A DNA stretch of 64,000 bases from Neoscytalidium dimidiatum (Eukaryota; Ascomycota; Dothideomycetes; Botryosphaeriales; Botryosphaeriaceae): assembly GCA_037367355.1 (NCBI GenBank), contig CM074695.1, forward strand, positions 3,348,001 through 3,412,000, given 5' to 3'. A program made the position numbers and the translations under genes. The number at the start of each line of letters is the position of its first letter. Within the stretch, counting starts at the first letter, position 1. The notes below the pieces were generated by a model. The model saw only the letters and a program-made list of their open reading frames with translations. It ran no database searches and was not told the DNA's origin. Below are positions 21,007 through 61,392 of the stretch, one piece after another.

Positions 21007-21674
21007 AGTGGCACGGCGAAAGGTGGTGCACTATGTGGAGTTCGACTTTGATTGAGAACGGTAAATGATGGGGTTAAGGGACAGCGGTTGGTAACGGGAT
21101 TGGATTGCATTTCGCATCTTCCACCGAGGGCATCGTAGGCTCAGGTGACGGGCAAGTTGGAGTTTTGTGCATACCAGATTTGGAGATGGATGAGGGTTGT
21201 AAATGTGACAGTCACTTCAGGATAATGACCGAAGTCCCTCGCAGGCAACAATGGAAAGATGACGTACTGAATGAGCATGTTTCTTTCTTTAACAGCAGCA
21301 GATAGTGGTTCTATATCGCGTGCGCCCTGTTGAGGAGTCCCGTGGTACTTCTACTTGCGATCTCCCTGGAACAGTGACTCACATTTCCTGATCAGGATCG
21401 AAATTCATGAATGTTTCCCAATCGCTCCTTCACTTGAAACCCCAGGAATATGTGCACGGGCCCCATAAACCCTGCATTGCCTGTGCCAAGCCGCTAACGC
21501 GAAGTCACGTGCGTAGTGCAAAAATCAGCAAAGCCTCCGATGTCCCGCCTATATAAACGTCCCCTCCCCCCCTCAACACACCTCTTTTCCTTTTTCTCTA
21601 TCCTGGTGCTCGGGCATGACGCGTGCAAGTGAAGGGTAACCTGATGCCGCGTTTTTGCTAGTTGAAAACTACAA
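21007..21674. other. Gene-free stretch with an orphan TATA element
   Basis: This 668-bp region holds no reading frame I support. Near its right end is the TATA element at 21550-21557, followed by a CT-rich run, pointing into sequence without an obvious plus-strand gene. Confidence 0.4.
21550..21557 (+). promoter_or_regulatory. Orphan TATA box with CT-rich initiator
   Basis: TATATAAA is followed within 50 bp by a strongly pyrimidine-rich run, the usual layout of a fungal Pol II start site. No convincing plus-strand coding exon follows; the first ATG opens only seven codons. It may drive a non-coding RNA or an unrecognised spliced gene, or be chance. Confidence 0.35.
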
Positions 21675-21875
21675 CTAATGACCGCTCTTGTTGGTCTTCG
21701 GATCGGCAAGGAATATTTGGAACCAAACTTTCTGGCGTAGCCAGGACCTTTTCGTTGCGACGCTCGCCTTGCTGCGGGAGCGTGAGGAAGAGGAGTACGT
21801 ATTCTGGGGTAATTTCGGCAAGACATGCCCAAGCGAGGCCGCCTCTGAATACTCTTGATAGTCGTATTCACTCAT
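21675..21875 (-). CDS. Possible small protein, 66 aa
   Basis: A short single-exon frame with protein-like composition. The N-terminus is acidic and Tyr-rich (MSEYDYQEYSEAASLGHVLP), followed by a Ser/Arg-rich middle and a basic, aromatic C-terminus (VWFQIFLADPKTNKSGH). I do not recognise a family. The even use of residues and the domain-like ending argue for coding; the small size and isolation in a gene-poor stretch argue against. It could be the last exon of a larger spliced gene. Confidence 0.3.
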   Translation of the reverse strand: MSEYDYQEYSEAASLGHVLPKLPQNTYSSSSRSRSKASVATKRSWLRQKVWFQIFLADPKTNKSGH

Positions 21876-50193: not shown

Positions 50194-53040
50194 TTAACCC
50201 TGCCATCTGACCCTCTCGCTACGCAAGATGCTGATGAGTCCCAGCGGCAGCAGACCCTTCTCGCAGATTGCCAGACCACCGAAACGCTTGTCCGTCTCGC
50301 CGGAATAGAGCAAGACTGTCCACCTCCAGTAAGGCTTCAGCGCGGCCCACCTGTCAGCGAAGCCCGGAGTGTTGTACTTCCCAGCAGGAAGTTTCGCCAA
50401 AGCATCCGAGATGGCGCTTGGGAAGTCGATTTCCGCTTCCTCTGTCGGCCTGAGGAGCTTTTCGTACACGATGCTTAGCTCGTCGGACGTCTGCTCGGCG
50501 AAGCGCATGTACTCGTCCAGGTCCATGAACGGCTCACCCTCGAGGTTCTTCGGCGCCGAGTCGTCGGCCGGCAGCTCACCGGCCTCAAAACATTCCCTGG
50601 CTTCCTCGTAGGCTTCTTGCTGCCTGATGAGAGCCCGTTCGAGGTCTTCGACCGGATTCTTGCGCGAAGACTCCCGCATTGCGTAGAGCTGCACAAACGG
50701 GTTGAGCAATCCCAGGCCGCCCAGCTCGACCGGGAAGTAAAAGAAAGCGTCCGGAATGGGGCGTCCGCAGCTAATAGCCGTGGCGTCAGCGAATCGCTTG
50801 GTGATAACTCCGCGGAGGTGCTCAGCCACGTTGCGAACGCCCGAGTCAGCGAAGAGTGAGCGCTGGATGTGTTCAAACGTCTCAATGCACTCATCGAGAT
50901 GCCGACGCCCTAAGCACCACGCCGGCTGCCCGAAGTTCGTGGTGAAGAAGCGCGCGACGTAGCTGTTCCAGGCTTGTACCCAGGCAAAGACGCTGCGGCA
51001 TGCCTCCAACTGGCGCTTGAGCTCCAGGACGTGTTCATCCACCTGCTCCTGATCAATGGTCCAACGGCCCTGGTTGGCGTCTAGCTTCAAAAAGCCCCAT
51101 CGAATCGTGCCCTGGGGAAGCGCCGCATGCAACGGTGCCAGCGCCTGCTTCTCAGGACTGACTACTTTCGCTGCGGCGGTTTTGTCCTCATTCAGTTGCA
51201 GGCCCATAATCTTCGAGAACTCCTGCAGCGTTTGCCATGCTTGAACACAGGTGCTCTCCTGACCCCAAAACCACAAATCATCATGGAAACGGTACAGCAC
51301 AGCTCCCTTAGTCTTGCGGTGGACAGCGAAGTCGAGGCAGAAGAGGACCGCCTCTCCCAGAGCATCTGCTAGCACATGGCCCATGGGGATGCCGTTCTTA
51401 CGAACCTTCGGCTCGGCATCGGGGCCATCCTGGGTGAAGACAAGCGGAGCTGCGAGGAACTTCTTGAGGAAGTTCAGCCAATGCGTGCCAAGGTTTAAGT
51501 ACTCCAGCACTGTGAGAATCGTTGCGTGCGGGATAGACGGACCGAACCATTTGAAATCGCTGGTAAATACGGTGAACTCGCCGTAGAGCTTCGTGTTGAC
51601 AAGCATTTCAGTTGTCACCAGACGAAGCAGTGACTGTTTGATCTCAAGCGGCTGCTTGGTCTTATCATCCGCATCCGTGTCATCATCACCGTAGTCACGA
51701 GTTGCCTCTTGCACGGTCGTAGGCATCTGTGTCATGAACCAGTCGTCCCGGAAGGTTGTACGGCGAATATCACGCACGGATTGCTGCTGAGACTGCACAT
51801 TCCTCTTTCCGAGGAAGTAGTGACGTCGCTGTCTATCCATCCTCGTCATGGCGCGGTAAGGAGCTTGCACCCAAGCGCCAGAGTTGAAGTGTGCCATGAA
51901 GGCGTTTCTCAGCATGACAGCCAGGTGCGCACCCACAACATGAATCAGGATCGCCGTGTGAACCTCTTCATCCATGTATGCCCGATACTTGCCGTTGAGC
52001 TGTCGACGCAGCAGGACTGGAACAGGACCGGGCCATTCCCAGCTCTTCAACGAGTCAAGGTCCATGCGCAGCACATCAACCATCTCCTTGATGACCTCAG
52101 GGCGCGAGTTCAGATCGATGAGCACTTCTCTCTTGGAACCGGTGAAGAGATCTGCCTTCAAGAGGCCCTTGATGGCAAAACGGATAGTGTTCTCGTCAAC
52201 GTGGATGATGCCGTCCCACTTGCCAATGTTGTGGCGGAGTTGCTCTAAGGGAGTCTTCTGCGAGCTTCTGGCCGTATGAACCGGGATAAGCAGATCATCA
52301 AGATATTTCTTGATGGCATCGGTGTCGACAGCAGGCTTATTAAAGATGAACTCTTCGAGCATCTTGCGCTGCTCATGCATTTCCTCGCGCCCAATGATGT
52401 CGAACGAGTCTGACTCCTCACTAGAAGAATGCGAGCGGGTGTCGGGCAGCTCAGCCTGGGCGGCTCCGCTATGGGCGTTCAGCTCCTCCATGGCACCGCT
52501 CGGATTCTTGATCCACTCAGTAACCAAGCGGCCGAAGAGATCGGCGTAGTTGTACTTGTCGGTGTGCATGTCGAGGTTCTGTTCCAACCAGGCGCGCCAT
52601 TGCTCGAGCAGACTTGTCGAGACCGAAGGGTCATGGCGAGCTTGCTCAAGAAACCTCTCAACATTCTTGACCGAAGACTCGCCCTTGTTATACTTGATGC
52701 CGTTCTGCTTGAATCCGGCCATCAGGATGCGGACCTTCTCGGCGGCATCGGCCTCTTTTCCAGAAGCGTCGAGAAGCTGGGCCTTCTGGGATTCGAATGA
52801 TTGCTGGTGCTCGGCCAGCTTGGCGAGCTTGCGGTCGGTGACATGACGCAATGTGGAAGTAACGGCTCCTCCAGACATGTTGACGTTCTTGCGGATACCG
52901 GCAAAGGATTGAGTGGAGTAATTGGTGGAAGTGAGGGCAGGACGAGCAGTGGGGCCGCGGGGGAAAGGCCGACCTCTTCCGCGGAACAGACCACTAGCTC
53001 TGAAGCTCGCTCTTCCTCTTCCGTTTCCTCTGCTATCCAT
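50194..53040 (-). CDS. rvt: Reverse-transcriptase-related cellular gene (rvt)
   Basis: Single-copy-type domesticated reverse transcriptase of the rvt class, described in filamentous fungi and other lineages as host genes rather than transposons (family knowledge). One intact exon from the ATG at 53040, 948 aa, the usual rvt size. The N-terminus is Arg/Gly/Phe-rich (GRGRASFRASGLFRGRGRPF), followed by a helical, coiled-coil-like region (about 65-300). The RT core has motif A SDFKWFG (Asp495), motif B GIPMGH (about 550), motif C FHDDLWFWG (Asp587, Asp588), motif D MGLQLNEDKT and motif E RWGFLKLD. The triad Asp495/587/588 is complete. The charged insert around 405-465 fits the rvt-specific loop between RT motifs 2 and 3. 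No endonuclease, integrase, RNase H, LTR or target duplication is present. A TATA box lies 122 bp upstream. Confidence 0.93.
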   Translation of the reverse strand: MDSRGNGRGRASFRASGLFRGRGRPFPRGPTARPALTSTNYSTQSFAGIRKNVNMSGGAVTSTLRHVTDRKLAKLAEHQQSFESQKAQLLDASGKEADAAEKVRILMAGFKQNGIKYNKGESSVKNVERFLEQARHDPSVSTSLLEQWRAWLEQNLDMHTDKYNYADLFGRLVTEWIKNPSGAMEELNAHSGAAQAELPDTRSHSSSEESDSFDIIGREEMHEQRKMLEEFIFNKPAVDTDAIKKYLDDLLIPVHTARSSQKTPLEQLRHNIGKWDGIIHVDENTIRFAIKGLLKADLFTGSKREVLIDLNSRPEVIKEMVDVLRMDLDSLKSWEWPGPVPVLLRRQLNGKYRAYMDEEVHTAILIHVVGAHLAVMLRNAFMAHFNSGAWVQAPYRAMTRMDRQRRHYFLGKRNVQSQQQSVRDIRRTTFRDDWFMTQMPTTVQEATRDYGDDDTDADDKTKQPLEIKQSLLRLVTTEMLVNTKLYGEFTVFTSDFKWFGPSIPHATILTVLEYLNLGTHWLNFLKKFLAAPLVFTQDGPDAEPKVRKNGIPMGHVLADALGEAVLFCLDFAVHRKTKGAVLYRFHDDLWFWGQESTCVQAWQTLQEFSKIMGLQLNEDKTAAAKVVSPEKQALAPLHAALPQGTIRWGFLKLDANQGRWTIDQEQVDEHVLELKRQLEACRSVFAWVQAWNSYVARFFTTNFGQPAWCLGRRHLDECIETFEHIQRSLFADSGVRNVAEHLRGVITKRFADATAISCGRPIPDAFFYFPVELGGLGLLNPFVQLYAMRESSRKNPVEDLERALIRQQEAYEEARECFEAGELPADDSAPKNLEGEPFMDLDEYMRFAEQTSDELSIVYEKLLRPTEEAEIDFPSAISDALAKLPAGKYNTPGFADRWAALKPYWRWTVLLYSGETDKRFGGLAICEKGLLPLGLISILRSERVRWQG

Positions 53041-55537: not shown

Positions 55538-55683
55538 GGGGGCGTGGCGCAACGGTAGCGGTAAGTTCCCAGTGACAGAGTGACGGACTATAATTCAATA
55601 AACTAATTCCTCTTGCAGCGTCAGATTCCAGATTCCACCTTGGAGTTTCCTGAAGGCTGTGCGTTCAAATCGCACCGTCCTCA
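55538..55683 (+). tRNA. tRNA-Trp (CCA), copy 1, with D-arm intron and anticodon intron
   Basis: The exons fold to a complete 72-nt tRNA. The acceptor stem is GGGGGCG with CGTCCTC (two G-T pairs), the D-stem GCGC/GCGC, and the anticodon loop TTCCAG+T with anticodon CCA (55628-55630). The T-arm is GTGCG-TTCAAAT-CGCAC, with discriminator A55683. The A box (55545-55555) and B box (55663-55671) are intact, and TTTTT at 55687-55691 can end Pol III transcription. A canonical 16-nt intron after position 37 (55632-55647) contains TGGA, able to pair with the anticodon as in a bulge-helix-bulge substrate. Unusually, a second insertion at 55561-55618 (58 nt) splits the D-stem between positions 24 and 25. 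It starts GTAAGT, ends TTGCAG and has AACTAAT 18 nt before the end, like a spliceosomal intron. Pair 31-39 is A-C in the mature form. Confidence 0.85.
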
Positions 55684-56254
55684 TTCTTTTTCGTTTTGCT
55701 CGTTGTGCGCGTGCTCCGTGTGGTGTAAATGACTCTCTTTCCGCCTTGCCAAGTGGAGACCACTGGGTCTGGACTCGAATGCCTTCAGCTCTTCTCGGCC
55801 GGACAAGGAAAAAACGACCCACCCCTTTTTTGCGTGCTTTTTTTAATTAACCTCAGGACACTTGGCCGGACTAAACGCACTCAAGCGCCGGCGACTCTTC
55901 CAGGCACATGAGCTGCAGCAAGTGATGAGTGCTTTGGCATAGTAGGAGGCCGGAATGTTTGAAAGAGAAGGAAAACGAGATGAACTTGAGGCTTGGTGAT
56001 CTGCGACATTCCGATGCTTCAACCATGAGGTCGAAACGACACCATATGCTCATTTGCTCATTTCCACTGTGTTGAAGAGCGAACATGTGTCAGACGTAGG
56101 CAGTTCGACGCAGTGAGATAGAAATCCAGGAACCCCACATTAACTAAGCGAGTTGCTCACAACCGCCGGCCACGTTCGCTTGCGAGTTGCCAAGCCTTTT
56201 CGCGAGAAAATCTTGTAATGATATAGTTTGTCTGCGGCTTGTTATTTCAAGTTT
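55684..56254. other. Spacer between the two tRNA genes
   Basis: A 571-bp spacer without a supported gene. The upstream flanks of the two tRNA copies are not similar, so the duplication does not extend beyond the tRNA itself. Confidence 0.5.
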
Positions 56255-56390
56255 GGGGGCGTGGCGCAACGGTAGCGGTAGGTCTTCACACGATTCTTAC
56301 AAGTCTCAAGTTTATTCTAATTCGAAGTAGCGTCAGATTCCAGATCATGGAATATCCTGAAGGCTGTGCGTTCAAATCGCACCGTCCTCA
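56255..56390 (+). tRNA. tRNA-Trp (CCA), copy 2, with D-arm intron and anticodon intron
   Basis: The exonic parts are identical to copy 1, including positions 38-39, so the same 72-nt tRNA is predicted. The anticodon CCA is at 56340-56342, the A box at 56262-56272, the B box at 56370-56378 and the terminator TTTTT at 56396-56400. The anticodon intron is 11 nt (56344-56354), again with TGGA facing the anticodon. The D-arm insertion is 53 nt (56278-56330), at exactly the same place between positions 24 and 25. It begins GTAGGT, ends AGTAG and has TTCTAAT 13 nt before the end. The two D-arm insertions share ends and branch-like motif but otherwise differ, whereas exons match completely. This suggests functional genes rather than pseudogenes. 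Confidence 0.85.
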
Positions 56391-56799
56391 ATTTCTTTTT
56401 GCTTTTGCTTGTTAGTCTCGTTCCATTCCCGATCTGACAATTTACTGAGTACCAGTGTATCACGGCCACCGCCCTCGCAAGCCGTAACTGGTTGACTAGA
56501 TTCCATTCAAACCGTATCGCCGCTGTGTTTCCATGATCCAGATCAAATGTCTCCCGGGTTGTCATTTCTATAGCTGCGCAACAGATCTAGGCTACTAAAG
56601 CAGATGGAACCTTTTACTTTTGCTCACTTCCGCAGGACTCCCGCCGCTTCTTAGAGGCCCGCAATTCAAAGCGCTGGGGCAGACTGGACATCCATCAAAA
56701 GAAGTGACATCATTTGCAAGAGCAGTCCAGATGGCTTCCCCTCATCCGTCTCAACCTTCGACACTCAGGAAAATCCCGACATCATCTCCCATCGCTCAC
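56391..56799. other. Intergenic region downstream of second tRNA
   Basis: This 409-bp region lies between tRNA copy 2 and the 3' end of the broken glycosyltransferase. No gene is seen. Confidence 0.4.
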
Positions 56800-60024: not shown

Positions 60025-61392
60025 ATGAAGACCTACTCGCGGCTGAAAAAAAGGACGCATCTCTCCTCCGAGCCGGCAACCAAACGCCGCCGTATCCACG
60101 CCGACCAAGACGAAGACGACGAGGGCGCGCTCCGTCTCTCCAGCGATGCCGCCCTCCTCCGCAGCGACTGCGCCTCAGCACCACGCTCGAGTCCACCGCG
60201 CGAAACCAGCGACGCCGCTCTCCCTTCCTCCACGCCTCCATCCTCTCCTCCGCCCGCGCGAACGACAACCGCATCGACACCCCCGCTCCCGCTCCCAAAA
60301 CGCCGTCCCACATTCTCCTTCTTTGCGCGCCGGACCGCTCCGCCAACGGCCCCGCGCCCCAGTGCTGCGATATCCGCCGCCTCTCCTCTTCTTCCTCCCC
60401 TTCCTCCCACCGAGCAGCGCAACCCTCGTGCCAGCGACGCCAACGCCTCGTCAACGGCAACGACCCTCGCAGGCCCCAAGGAGAAGAGAACGCAGCCGCG
60501 CCTCACGCAGCTCCAGCTCGACCTTGGTACCACCCCTGTGCAGCGCGCCTGCGGGACGTGCGGCATGGCGTACGTGCCGGCGAACGCCGAGGACGCCGCG
60601 TTGCACCGGAAGTTCCACGCCTTGAACGTCGGCGGCGTGGAGGTGGGGAAAGCGTTTGCGAGAGGTGGCGGCGGCGGCGTGGTCGTTTGGGAGAAGGGCG
60701 TGGACGGTGACGTGGTTGTCGCGGTCGGGCGGAGGGATAGGGGCGCGGCGAAGGCGCGGGCGAGGCGGGTGTTGGAGGTCGTACAGTCGGAGTTGGGGGC
60801 AGTGAAGATACCGGAGGAGGAATTGTGGGGGCAAGTTGTCGTGGGGGGCGGAATGGAGACGGCCGAAGAGGAGGTGGAAGCGAAGCCGCAGACAGCTGCT
60901 GTGGTGGGGCAAACCGGCGTGAAGAAGACGCCGGAGGAGACGGTGTTGCGCGCAGATCGGTTCAAGGCGTACCTCTACGTCAGAGGCTCCAAGTGCATCG
61001 GCCTTTGCCTCGCAGAACGCATCACCGAGGCCTACCGGATCATGCCTCCTCAGAACACCCCGAGCCCCCCGGGCGGTGGCTCCTCCACCGATACGCCATC
61101 ATCTACCGAGCCACCGGCGGAATCCAACCGCTCACCAGCCCTCACCACCTCACCAACATCGCTGCCAGCCCGCCTTGGCATCTCGCGCATCTGGGTCTCG
61201 TCCTCGCACCGCCGCCACGGCATCGCAACCGCCCTTCTCGATGCTGCTGCCCGTGATTTCTGCGACCTCTATTCTGAAGATGAGAAGCGCGTGCCGAAAG
61301 AGCGGATTGCGTTTAGCCAGCCGACGGAGAACGGGGCGAGGTTGGCGACGAGATGGTTCGGTGTGGAGGCGGGGTGGGGTGTGTATTGGTAG
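60025..61392 (+). CDS. ECO1: Sister-chromatid cohesion acetyltransferase ECO1
   Basis: Acetylates the cohesin subunit Smc3 during S phase (family knowledge); nuclear. Single exon from the ATG at 60025, 455 aa. The N-terminal 150 residues are disordered, with basic KKRTHLSSEPATKRRRIH, a likely nuclear signal. A C2H2-like zinc finger follows: LTQLQLDLGTT, then CGTCGMAY and ALHRKFHALN. The C-terminal GNAT domain has KCIGLCLAERI, then ISRIWVSSSHRRHGIATALLD (acetyl-CoA motif), and the closing AFSQPTENGARLATRWFG, diagnostic of ECO1. The spacing between finger and catalytic motif includes a Gly-rich insert (FARGGGGGVVVW) and a Ser/Thr/Pro-rich loop; both look like lineage-specific disorder. All zinc ligands and the acetyl-CoA loop are present. 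Confidence 0.94.
   Translation: MKTYSRLKKRTHLSSEPATKRRRIHADQDEDDEGALRLSSDAALLRSDCASAPRSSPPRETSDAALPSSTPPSSPPPARTTTASTPPLPLPKRRPTFSFFARRTAPPTAPRPSAAISAASPLLPPLPPTEQRNPRASDANASSTATTLAGPKEKRTQPRLTQLQLDLGTTPVQRACGTCGMAYVPANAEDAALHRKFHALNVGGVEVGKAFARGGGGGVVVWEKGVDGDVVVAVGRRDRGAAKARARRVLEVVQSELGAVKIPEEELWGQVVVGGGMETAEEEVEAKPQTAAVVGQTGVKKTPEETVLRADRFKAYLYVRGSKCIGLCLAERITEAYRIMPPQNTPSPPGGGSSTDTPSSTEPPAESNRSPALTTSPTSLPARLGISRIWVSSSHRRHGIATALLDAAARDFCDLYSEDEKRVPKERIAFSQPTENGARLATRWFGVEAGWGVYW

Follow-up and report, generated by a model that had tools for sequence, protein, structure and literature searches.

Candidate spliceosomal introns in at least 13 tRNA genes of the fungus Neoscytalidium dimidiatum, each beside an ordinary anticodon-loop intron

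The window analysed here is a stretch of 64,000 nucleotides from Neoscytalidium dimidiatum (contig CM074695.1, positions 3,348,001 to 3,412,000), and coordinates refer to it unless another contig is named. Two tRNA-Trp(CCA) genes lie there in tandem on the forward strand and each of them is interrupted twice. Copy A (TrpA), as read from the sequence and with ARAGORN, occupies 55538..55683, a precursor of 146 nt, and is divided between tRNA positions 24 and 25 by a 58-nt insert (55561..55618) that runs from GTAAGT to GCAG. Within this insert, AACTAAT (55601..55607) resembles a branch site, its presumed branch A (55606) lying 12 nt from the end of the insert. An ordinary intron of 16 nt follows at 37/38 (55632..55647), its TGGA opposite the anticodon. 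The segment 55545..55555 (gene nt 8-18, standard positions 8-19), which we take to be the A box, is uninterrupted; the B-box core GTTCAAATC is found at 55663..55671 and a run of five T at 55687..55691 is the presumed Pol III terminator. Copy B (TrpB), identified in the same manner, occupies 56255..56390 with a precursor of 136 nt. Its insert at 24/25 measures 53 nt (56278..56330, GTAGGT to GTAG) and carries the branch-site-like TTCTAAT (56315..56321), the presumed branch A at 56320 being 10 nt from the end; its ordinary 37/38 intron measures 11 nt (56344..56354) and again places TGGA opposite the anticodon. The A-box region of this copy (56262..56272) is likewise uninterrupted, the same B-box core GTTCAAATC lies at 56370..56378, and a presumed T5 terminator at 56396..56400.

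The first-pass annotation of this DNA had described two tandem genes with GT-AG inserts of 58 and 53 nt in the D arm, the anticodon-loop intron with its TGGA, and identical exons around differing inserts. All of this can be read directly from the sequence, where the exons are verbatim the same and the insert interiors unalignable. It had also reported a branch-like CTAAT 13-18 nt before the insert end; the motif is present in both copies, at the shorter distances of 12 and 10 nt. Removal of both introns leaves one common tRNA-Trp(CCA) of 72 nt, called tRNA-Trp(cca) by ARAGORN, in whose cloverleaf 20 of 21 pairs form and the D stem is complete, the exception being A31:C39 in the anticodon stem. 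This non-pair is common to all three Trp genes of the genome. Neither Rfam at its gathering thresholds nor ARAGORN without the intron option detected the two window genes.

The 34-nt 3' exon of the Trp genes, allowing up to three mismatches, occurs three times in the 43.8-Mb, 40-contig genome: in the two window genes and once on contig C10. The C10 gene (TrpC), found through its exon only, has the same two-intron arrangement, with a 57-nt insert (GTAAGT...TACTAAC...CAG) at the same 24/25 site, and the exons of the three genes differ by a single C/T at nt 16. Exon matching, junction matching, BLAST and the Rfam tRNA model yielded no insert-free tRNA-Trp gene in the genome. The insert-free junction, again with up to three mismatches, had one genome match in a sequence that is not tRNA-like, the 72-nt BLAST query returned the same three genes and nothing else, and no tRNA-Trp figured among the 39 nuclear tRNAs obtained with the Rfam model, a search in which only the best candidates were scored and from which many other isotypes were absent as well. 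A separate set of normal tRNA-Trp genes, which had been named beforehand as a result that would weigh against a spliceosomal reading, was thus not found: all three copies found carry the insert. UGG is decoded only by tRNA-Trp(CCA). Because of this, and because no insert-free copy was found, removal of the insert would be essential for reading UGG, barring a tRNA-Trp copy missed by the searches.

The arrangement extends well beyond tryptophan. Ten more tRNA genes with GT-AG inserts were found, bringing the total to 13 genes and six isodecoders, every one of them verbatim in the genome sequence; what had been noticed for the two Trp genes holds for both, and its scope was too narrow. The inserts lie at 23/24 in three Pro-AGG genes (one on C3, two on C11), at 28/29 in two Arg-CCT genes (C7), at 26/27 in Arg-CCG (C2), at 25/26 in Leu-CAG (C5), at 19/20 in three Ala-AGC genes (C5, C9 and C11) and at 24/25 in the three Trp-CCA genes. 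All 13 sites, from 19/20 to 28/29, lie downstream of the A box and upstream of the anticodon, a region that the design of the search favoured, and all 13 genes possess an ordinary 37/38 intron alongside the insert. Elsewhere among the tRNA genes, ordinary 37/38 introns are of considerable and varied length: 38-53 nt for Gly-GCC, either 22 or 76 nt for Ser-GCT and 44 nt for Ala-AGC. No insert-free copy of Pro-AGG, Arg-CCT or Arg-CCG was found in the genome.

These genes were sought with four patterns combining the A-box end, GTRNGT and the B box, together with one query of joined mature tRNAs. The count of 13 is a lower bound, inserts 5' of the A box and exon searches for Leu-CAG and further Ala-AGC copies lying outside the search. 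For eight of the genes (ProA, the three Arg, Leu and the three Ala) the search pattern itself included GTRNGT, which builds in their donor match; the queries that recovered TrpC, ProB and ProC contained no intron signal, ProB and ProC coming first from exon matches only. Pattern matches compared with reversed controls (23 v 14, 10 v 16, 24 v 48 and 17 v 16) reveal no clear enrichment, every count but the first being near or under that of its control, and true matches are marked only by the tRNA that is restored once the GT-AG stretch is cut out. Among the 23 matches of one pattern, one was TrpC, 20 loci comprised four tRNA genes and 16 sequences that are not, and two overlapping matches at C7:867274/867277 were not tRNA. 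The ten matches of the CGGT form corresponded to the two window genes and eight sites without a tRNA. A search for inserts further 3' gave 24 matches (48 in the reversed control), two of them overlapping each other, and no tRNA with a GTRNGT insert. Of the 17 matches to the remaining pattern, three belonged to ProB and ProC, two to the C7:867274/867277 locus, and the 12 others divided into four tRNA and eight non-tRNA sequences. When 3,834 GT-AG cuts were tried at 43 loci on both strands, a single cut outside four tRNA loci was called a tRNA, and it had no GTRNGT donor. Scans of prokaryote contigs returned no match in one case and, in the other, two bacterial tRNA genes (read as Arg by their CCG anticodon); a scan of viral contigs returned none.

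Excision of the insert restores recognisable tRNAs. With introns allowed, ARAGORN gave the right anticodon for only two of the 13 unspliced genes (ProB and ProC), and for ten once the GT-AG insert alone had been removed (the three Trp, three Pro and three Arg genes and AlaB). Leu-CAG was called correctly after removal of both introns; AlaA and AlaC were still miscalled, and their AGC anticodon was read by hand. In the twelve tRNAs of 72 nt, 20-21 of 21 cloverleaf pairs form, the 81-nt Leu tRNA being outside this scoring.

How far the inserts resemble mRNA introns was judged against 19 introns of kinase genes taken genome-wide, which were resolved by a protein-kinase profile with only GT and AG required; of 25 kinase exon gaps, six were dropped for a margin below 4 bits or a length above 100 nt. 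These mRNA introns measure 47-77 nt (median 53), contain CTRAY in 18 of 19 cases and place the branch A 9-16 nt from their end. The 13 tRNA inserts, at 51-64 nt, fall inside this range. All begin with GTRNGT, eight with GTAAGT, and the preceding exon base is G in 12 of the 13 genes. CTRAY occurs in nine inserts, with the branch A 10-14 nt from the end, and the other four have off-consensus branch sites at 8-13 nt (CTAAG in ArgCCTa, TTAAC in ArgCCTb and AlaA, CTAAA in AlaB), that of ArgCCTa, at 8 nt, being slightly nearer than the 9-16 nt of mRNA introns. Twelve inserts end in YAG, and AlaA ends in AAG, as do three of the 19 mRNA introns. In nine genes the acceptor would be the first AG after the branch; in TrpB, ProB, ArgCCTb and AlaC an earlier AG, located 4-7 nt past the branch A, would have to be skipped. 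On a log-odds score summing donor, branch and acceptor, the inserts reach 14.8-23.0 against 12.0-22.3 for the mRNA introns scored leave-one-out, and the three genes found without an intron signal score 22.1 (TrpC), 22.3 (ProB) and 21.4 (ProC). Across the window, 116 of 2,557,700 placements of 48-67 nt (4.5e-5), a count that includes real mRNA introns, score at least as high as the lowest tRNA insert; a chance GT-AG match was set aside on this basis. The earlier suggestion of mRNA-like signals and lengths, made with reference to the window's own introns, is thereby borne out against a genome-wide set of kinase introns.

Comparison of gene copies points the same way. Across ten pairs drawn from the Trp, Pro, Arg-CCT and Ala copies, insert interiors (without the first 6 and last 22 nt) are 0.41-0.60 identical (z -1.1 to 1.8), hardly if at all closer than shuffled sequence, and whole inserts including the signals reach z 1.2 to 6.5; the exons show few differences or none, and the three splice signals are retained. 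Such divergence is what introns selected solely for being spliced would look like. In donor, branch, acceptor and length, the inserts would be classed as U2-type spliceosomal introns.

A particular case is provided by the Ala-AGC genes. A fourth copy (AlaD, on C4), found by the Rfam model, has no GT-AG insert and is otherwise AlaC (C11) minus its 58-nt insert, letter for letter over 116 nt that include the 44-nt ordinary intron; the ordinary introns of AlaA and AlaB differ in length and sequence. The identity ends 3 nt upstream and stops at once downstream, where the 45-nt trailers of AlaC and AlaD are 67% alike, against 59-74% for other Ala pairs. A similar 45-nt 3' trailer (59-74% alike) is a feature of all four Ala-AGC genes, with a T-run at a distance of 33-38 nt from the 3' end of the mature tRNA. 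The AlaC/AlaD pair shows, at the level of the genome sequence, an insert that behaves as a precise unit. On one reading, a precursor without its GT-AG intron but still with the ordinary one may have been copied over AlaD; on another, plain gene conversion from nt 20 to the end may have acted on a copy that never had the insert. With one insert-free copy, removal is perhaps not essential for this isodecoder.

Removal by the tRNA splicing endonuclease, or by a relative acting at a second site on the model of archaea, nucleomorphs and Cyanidioschyzon, with GT-AG ends that are incidental, has to be weighed against these signals, and we consider it unlikely. Passages of a 2014 review on tRNA introns describe non-canonical introns in the D and T arms of nucleomorph genes, their removal documented by RT-PCR, and of a red alga, and a eukaryotic enzyme without a strict need for a bulge-helix-bulge (PMC4090602); an endonuclease-type intron is also present in every gene described here. 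The inserts themselves do not lie at 37/38, the site of SEN-type introns, in any of the 13 genes, and none of the 13 forms a complete bulge-helix-bulge. The outer helix reaches 0-1 of 3 pairs at every insert, whereas the ordinary intron of each gene has 2-3 of 3, and this holds at the 24/25 junction, where a conserved motif had been proposed in advance as evidence against spliceosomal removal. All four central pairs are possible in TrpA and TrpC, as in 6% of 5,000 random inserts, and at most two in the other 11. The central helix is a weak test, since the ordinary introns of these genes range from 0 to 4; when the 19 mRNA introns were placed at the Trp site as controls, ten reached three central pairs and none reached four. 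Minimum-energy folding of the precursors did not return a cloverleaf even for the mature tRNA. A second endonuclease site predicts neither GTRNGT, nor a branch motif, nor YAG, nor a length of 51-64 nt, all of which are present in the copies found through their exons only.

It is very unlikely that these loci are decayed pseudogenes and that the functional tRNAs derive from copies missed by the search or the assembly. Insertions in the D or T arm are usually taken as pseudogenes when only one of many copies has them, and the same passages of the 2014 review confine non-canonical eukaryotic tRNA introns to nucleomorphs and the red alga, other D-arm insertions being probable pseudogenes (PMC4090602). 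The assembly is in 40 contigs, only the best candidates were scored, the 39 nuclear tRNAs from the Rfam model lack many isotypes, and AlaD is an insert-free Ala copy. Against decay, each of the three Trp copies found carries the insert, the exons remain intact with almost no differences, the B box, T-run and endonuclease-type intron are kept, and decay would not spare just the splice signals within the inserts. Scarcely credible, in our estimate, is the idea that the loci sit inside longer Pol II transcripts that are spliced like mRNA, with the tRNA trimmed out later. A cap would then explain access of the spliceosome, and the first T4 run lies as far as 33-40 nt downstream in five genes (ArgCCTb, ArgCCG and the three Ala). 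In the other eight, a run of four or more T follows within 10 nt, A and B boxes are present, and 12 of the 13 precursors contain no internal TTTT; AlaA has one within the insert, at which Pol III might terminate.

Our preferred interpretation, which we hold to be highly probable, is that in these 13 genes GT-AG inserts bearing mRNA-intron signals are cut from a Pol III precursor by the spliceosome, and that the tRNA endonuclease then acts. Pol III would transcribe the precursor from internal A and B boxes and stop at a T-run, a prediction that relies on these elements. The spliceosome, probably the removing agent to judge from the intron signals, would take out the GT-AG intron first, passing over, in TrpB, ProB, ArgCCTb and AlaC, an AG that stands 4-7 nt beyond the branch A, nearer than the 9-16 nt of mRNA introns. 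The folded D arm would then let the endonuclease measure to the 37/38 intron. This order is suggested by the ruler model, in which the endonuclease takes its measure from the folded tRNA body, and by the contact of the enzyme's Sen54 subunit with the D arm, as outlined in the 2014 review (PMC4090602). The first-pass annotation had raised spliceosomal removal from a Pol III transcript for the two Trp genes; the results support that reading, neither of the two contrary outcomes that it listed having appeared, and it is from the splice signals that we infer the spliceosome. We further regard as probable the wider proposition of a fungal lineage with a tRNA-level dependence on the spliceosome, comprising at least 13 genes, six isodecoders and every Trp gene found, in which two unrelated splicing machineries would operate in a fixed order and AlaD would record the intermediate, returned to the genome as a copy.

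The nearest precedent is the U6 snRNA gene of Schizosaccharomyces pombe, in which the spliceosome excises an mRNA-type intron from RNA made by Pol III (Tani and Ohshima 1989, 1991, as cited in PMC8917221). The present genes share the mRNA-type intron in a transcript here predicted to be Pol III-made; unlike U6, the host is a tRNA, several isodecoders are involved and the tRNA endonuclease is also needed for each gene. A single U6 gene was found in this genome (C5:1524025-1524126), and it has no intron. Spliceosomal introns also occur in the rDNA of ascomycetes, which is alike in that a non-mRNA is interrupted and unlike in that the transcript is made by Pol I and yields rRNA. The ordinary eukaryotic 37/38 SEN introns, as the 2014 review describes them (PMC4090602), are present in all 13 genes beside the insert, which differs from them in its site, in having no complete bulge-helix-bulge and in its GT-AG ends and branch site. 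In its account of eukaryotic genes, the tRNAscan-SE 2.0 paper admits no more than one intron per tRNA gene (PMC8450103), whereas here there are two. Nucleomorphs, Cyanidioschyzon merolae and archaea likewise have additional tRNA introns, located in the D arm and the anticodon stem, and some of their genes carry two or three; according to the same review passages, however, the archaeal and C. merolae introns rest on a bulge-helix-bulge, of which the inserts here have no complete version, and those of the Guillardia nucleomorph measure 3-24 nt, against 51-64 nt with splice signals here (PMC4090602). A literature search, with most subscription papers and bioRxiv outside its scope, listed among its matches no title or abstract opening that reports spliceosomal introns in nuclear tRNA genes, and the exact phrase 'spliceosomal introns in tRNA' did not occur among the matches listed.

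The spliceosome has no known role in cutting any tRNA, and in an excerpt of a 2026 review tRNA splicing serves as the standard example of splicing without it (PMC13149111). Should the inserts be spliceosomal, the spliceosome would act on uncapped Pol III tRNA precursors in an essential pathway, and the decoding of UGG would be tied to its activity. Such genes would offer a simple system for the RNA needs of the spliceosome, their transcripts lacking both cap and poly(A) tail and beginning with a leader and a first exon of 18-27 nt. Gene finders blind to inserts of this kind may miss whole isodecoders, as Rfam and ARAGORN missed the genes of the window.

Several other features of the window and genome were recorded. 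A U4 spliceosomal RNA gene lies at 21600-21735 on the forward strand (96.9 bits against RF00015). On the reverse strand, 2.5 kb from the tRNA-Trp genes, a reading frame of 948 aa (50194-53040) contains an RVT_1 domain (E 3.4e-8) and has no match among solved structures at E 0.01; it may be a domesticated fungal rvt gene. An ESCO-type cohesin acetyltransferase with Acetyltransf_13 and zf-C2H2_3 domains is encoded at 60025-61392 on the forward strand, and the mitochondrial intermediate peptidase of the window shares 91% identity with the homologue from Lasiodiplodia theobromae and 85% with the Aplosporella prunicola protein, a similarity from which the host is taken to belong to the Botryosphaeriales. 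Finally, the 308-kb contig C40 contains 24 tRNA matches that form 12 pairs about 176.8-176.9 kb apart, a spacing suggestive of a mitochondrial circle of about 177 kb assembled nearly twice.
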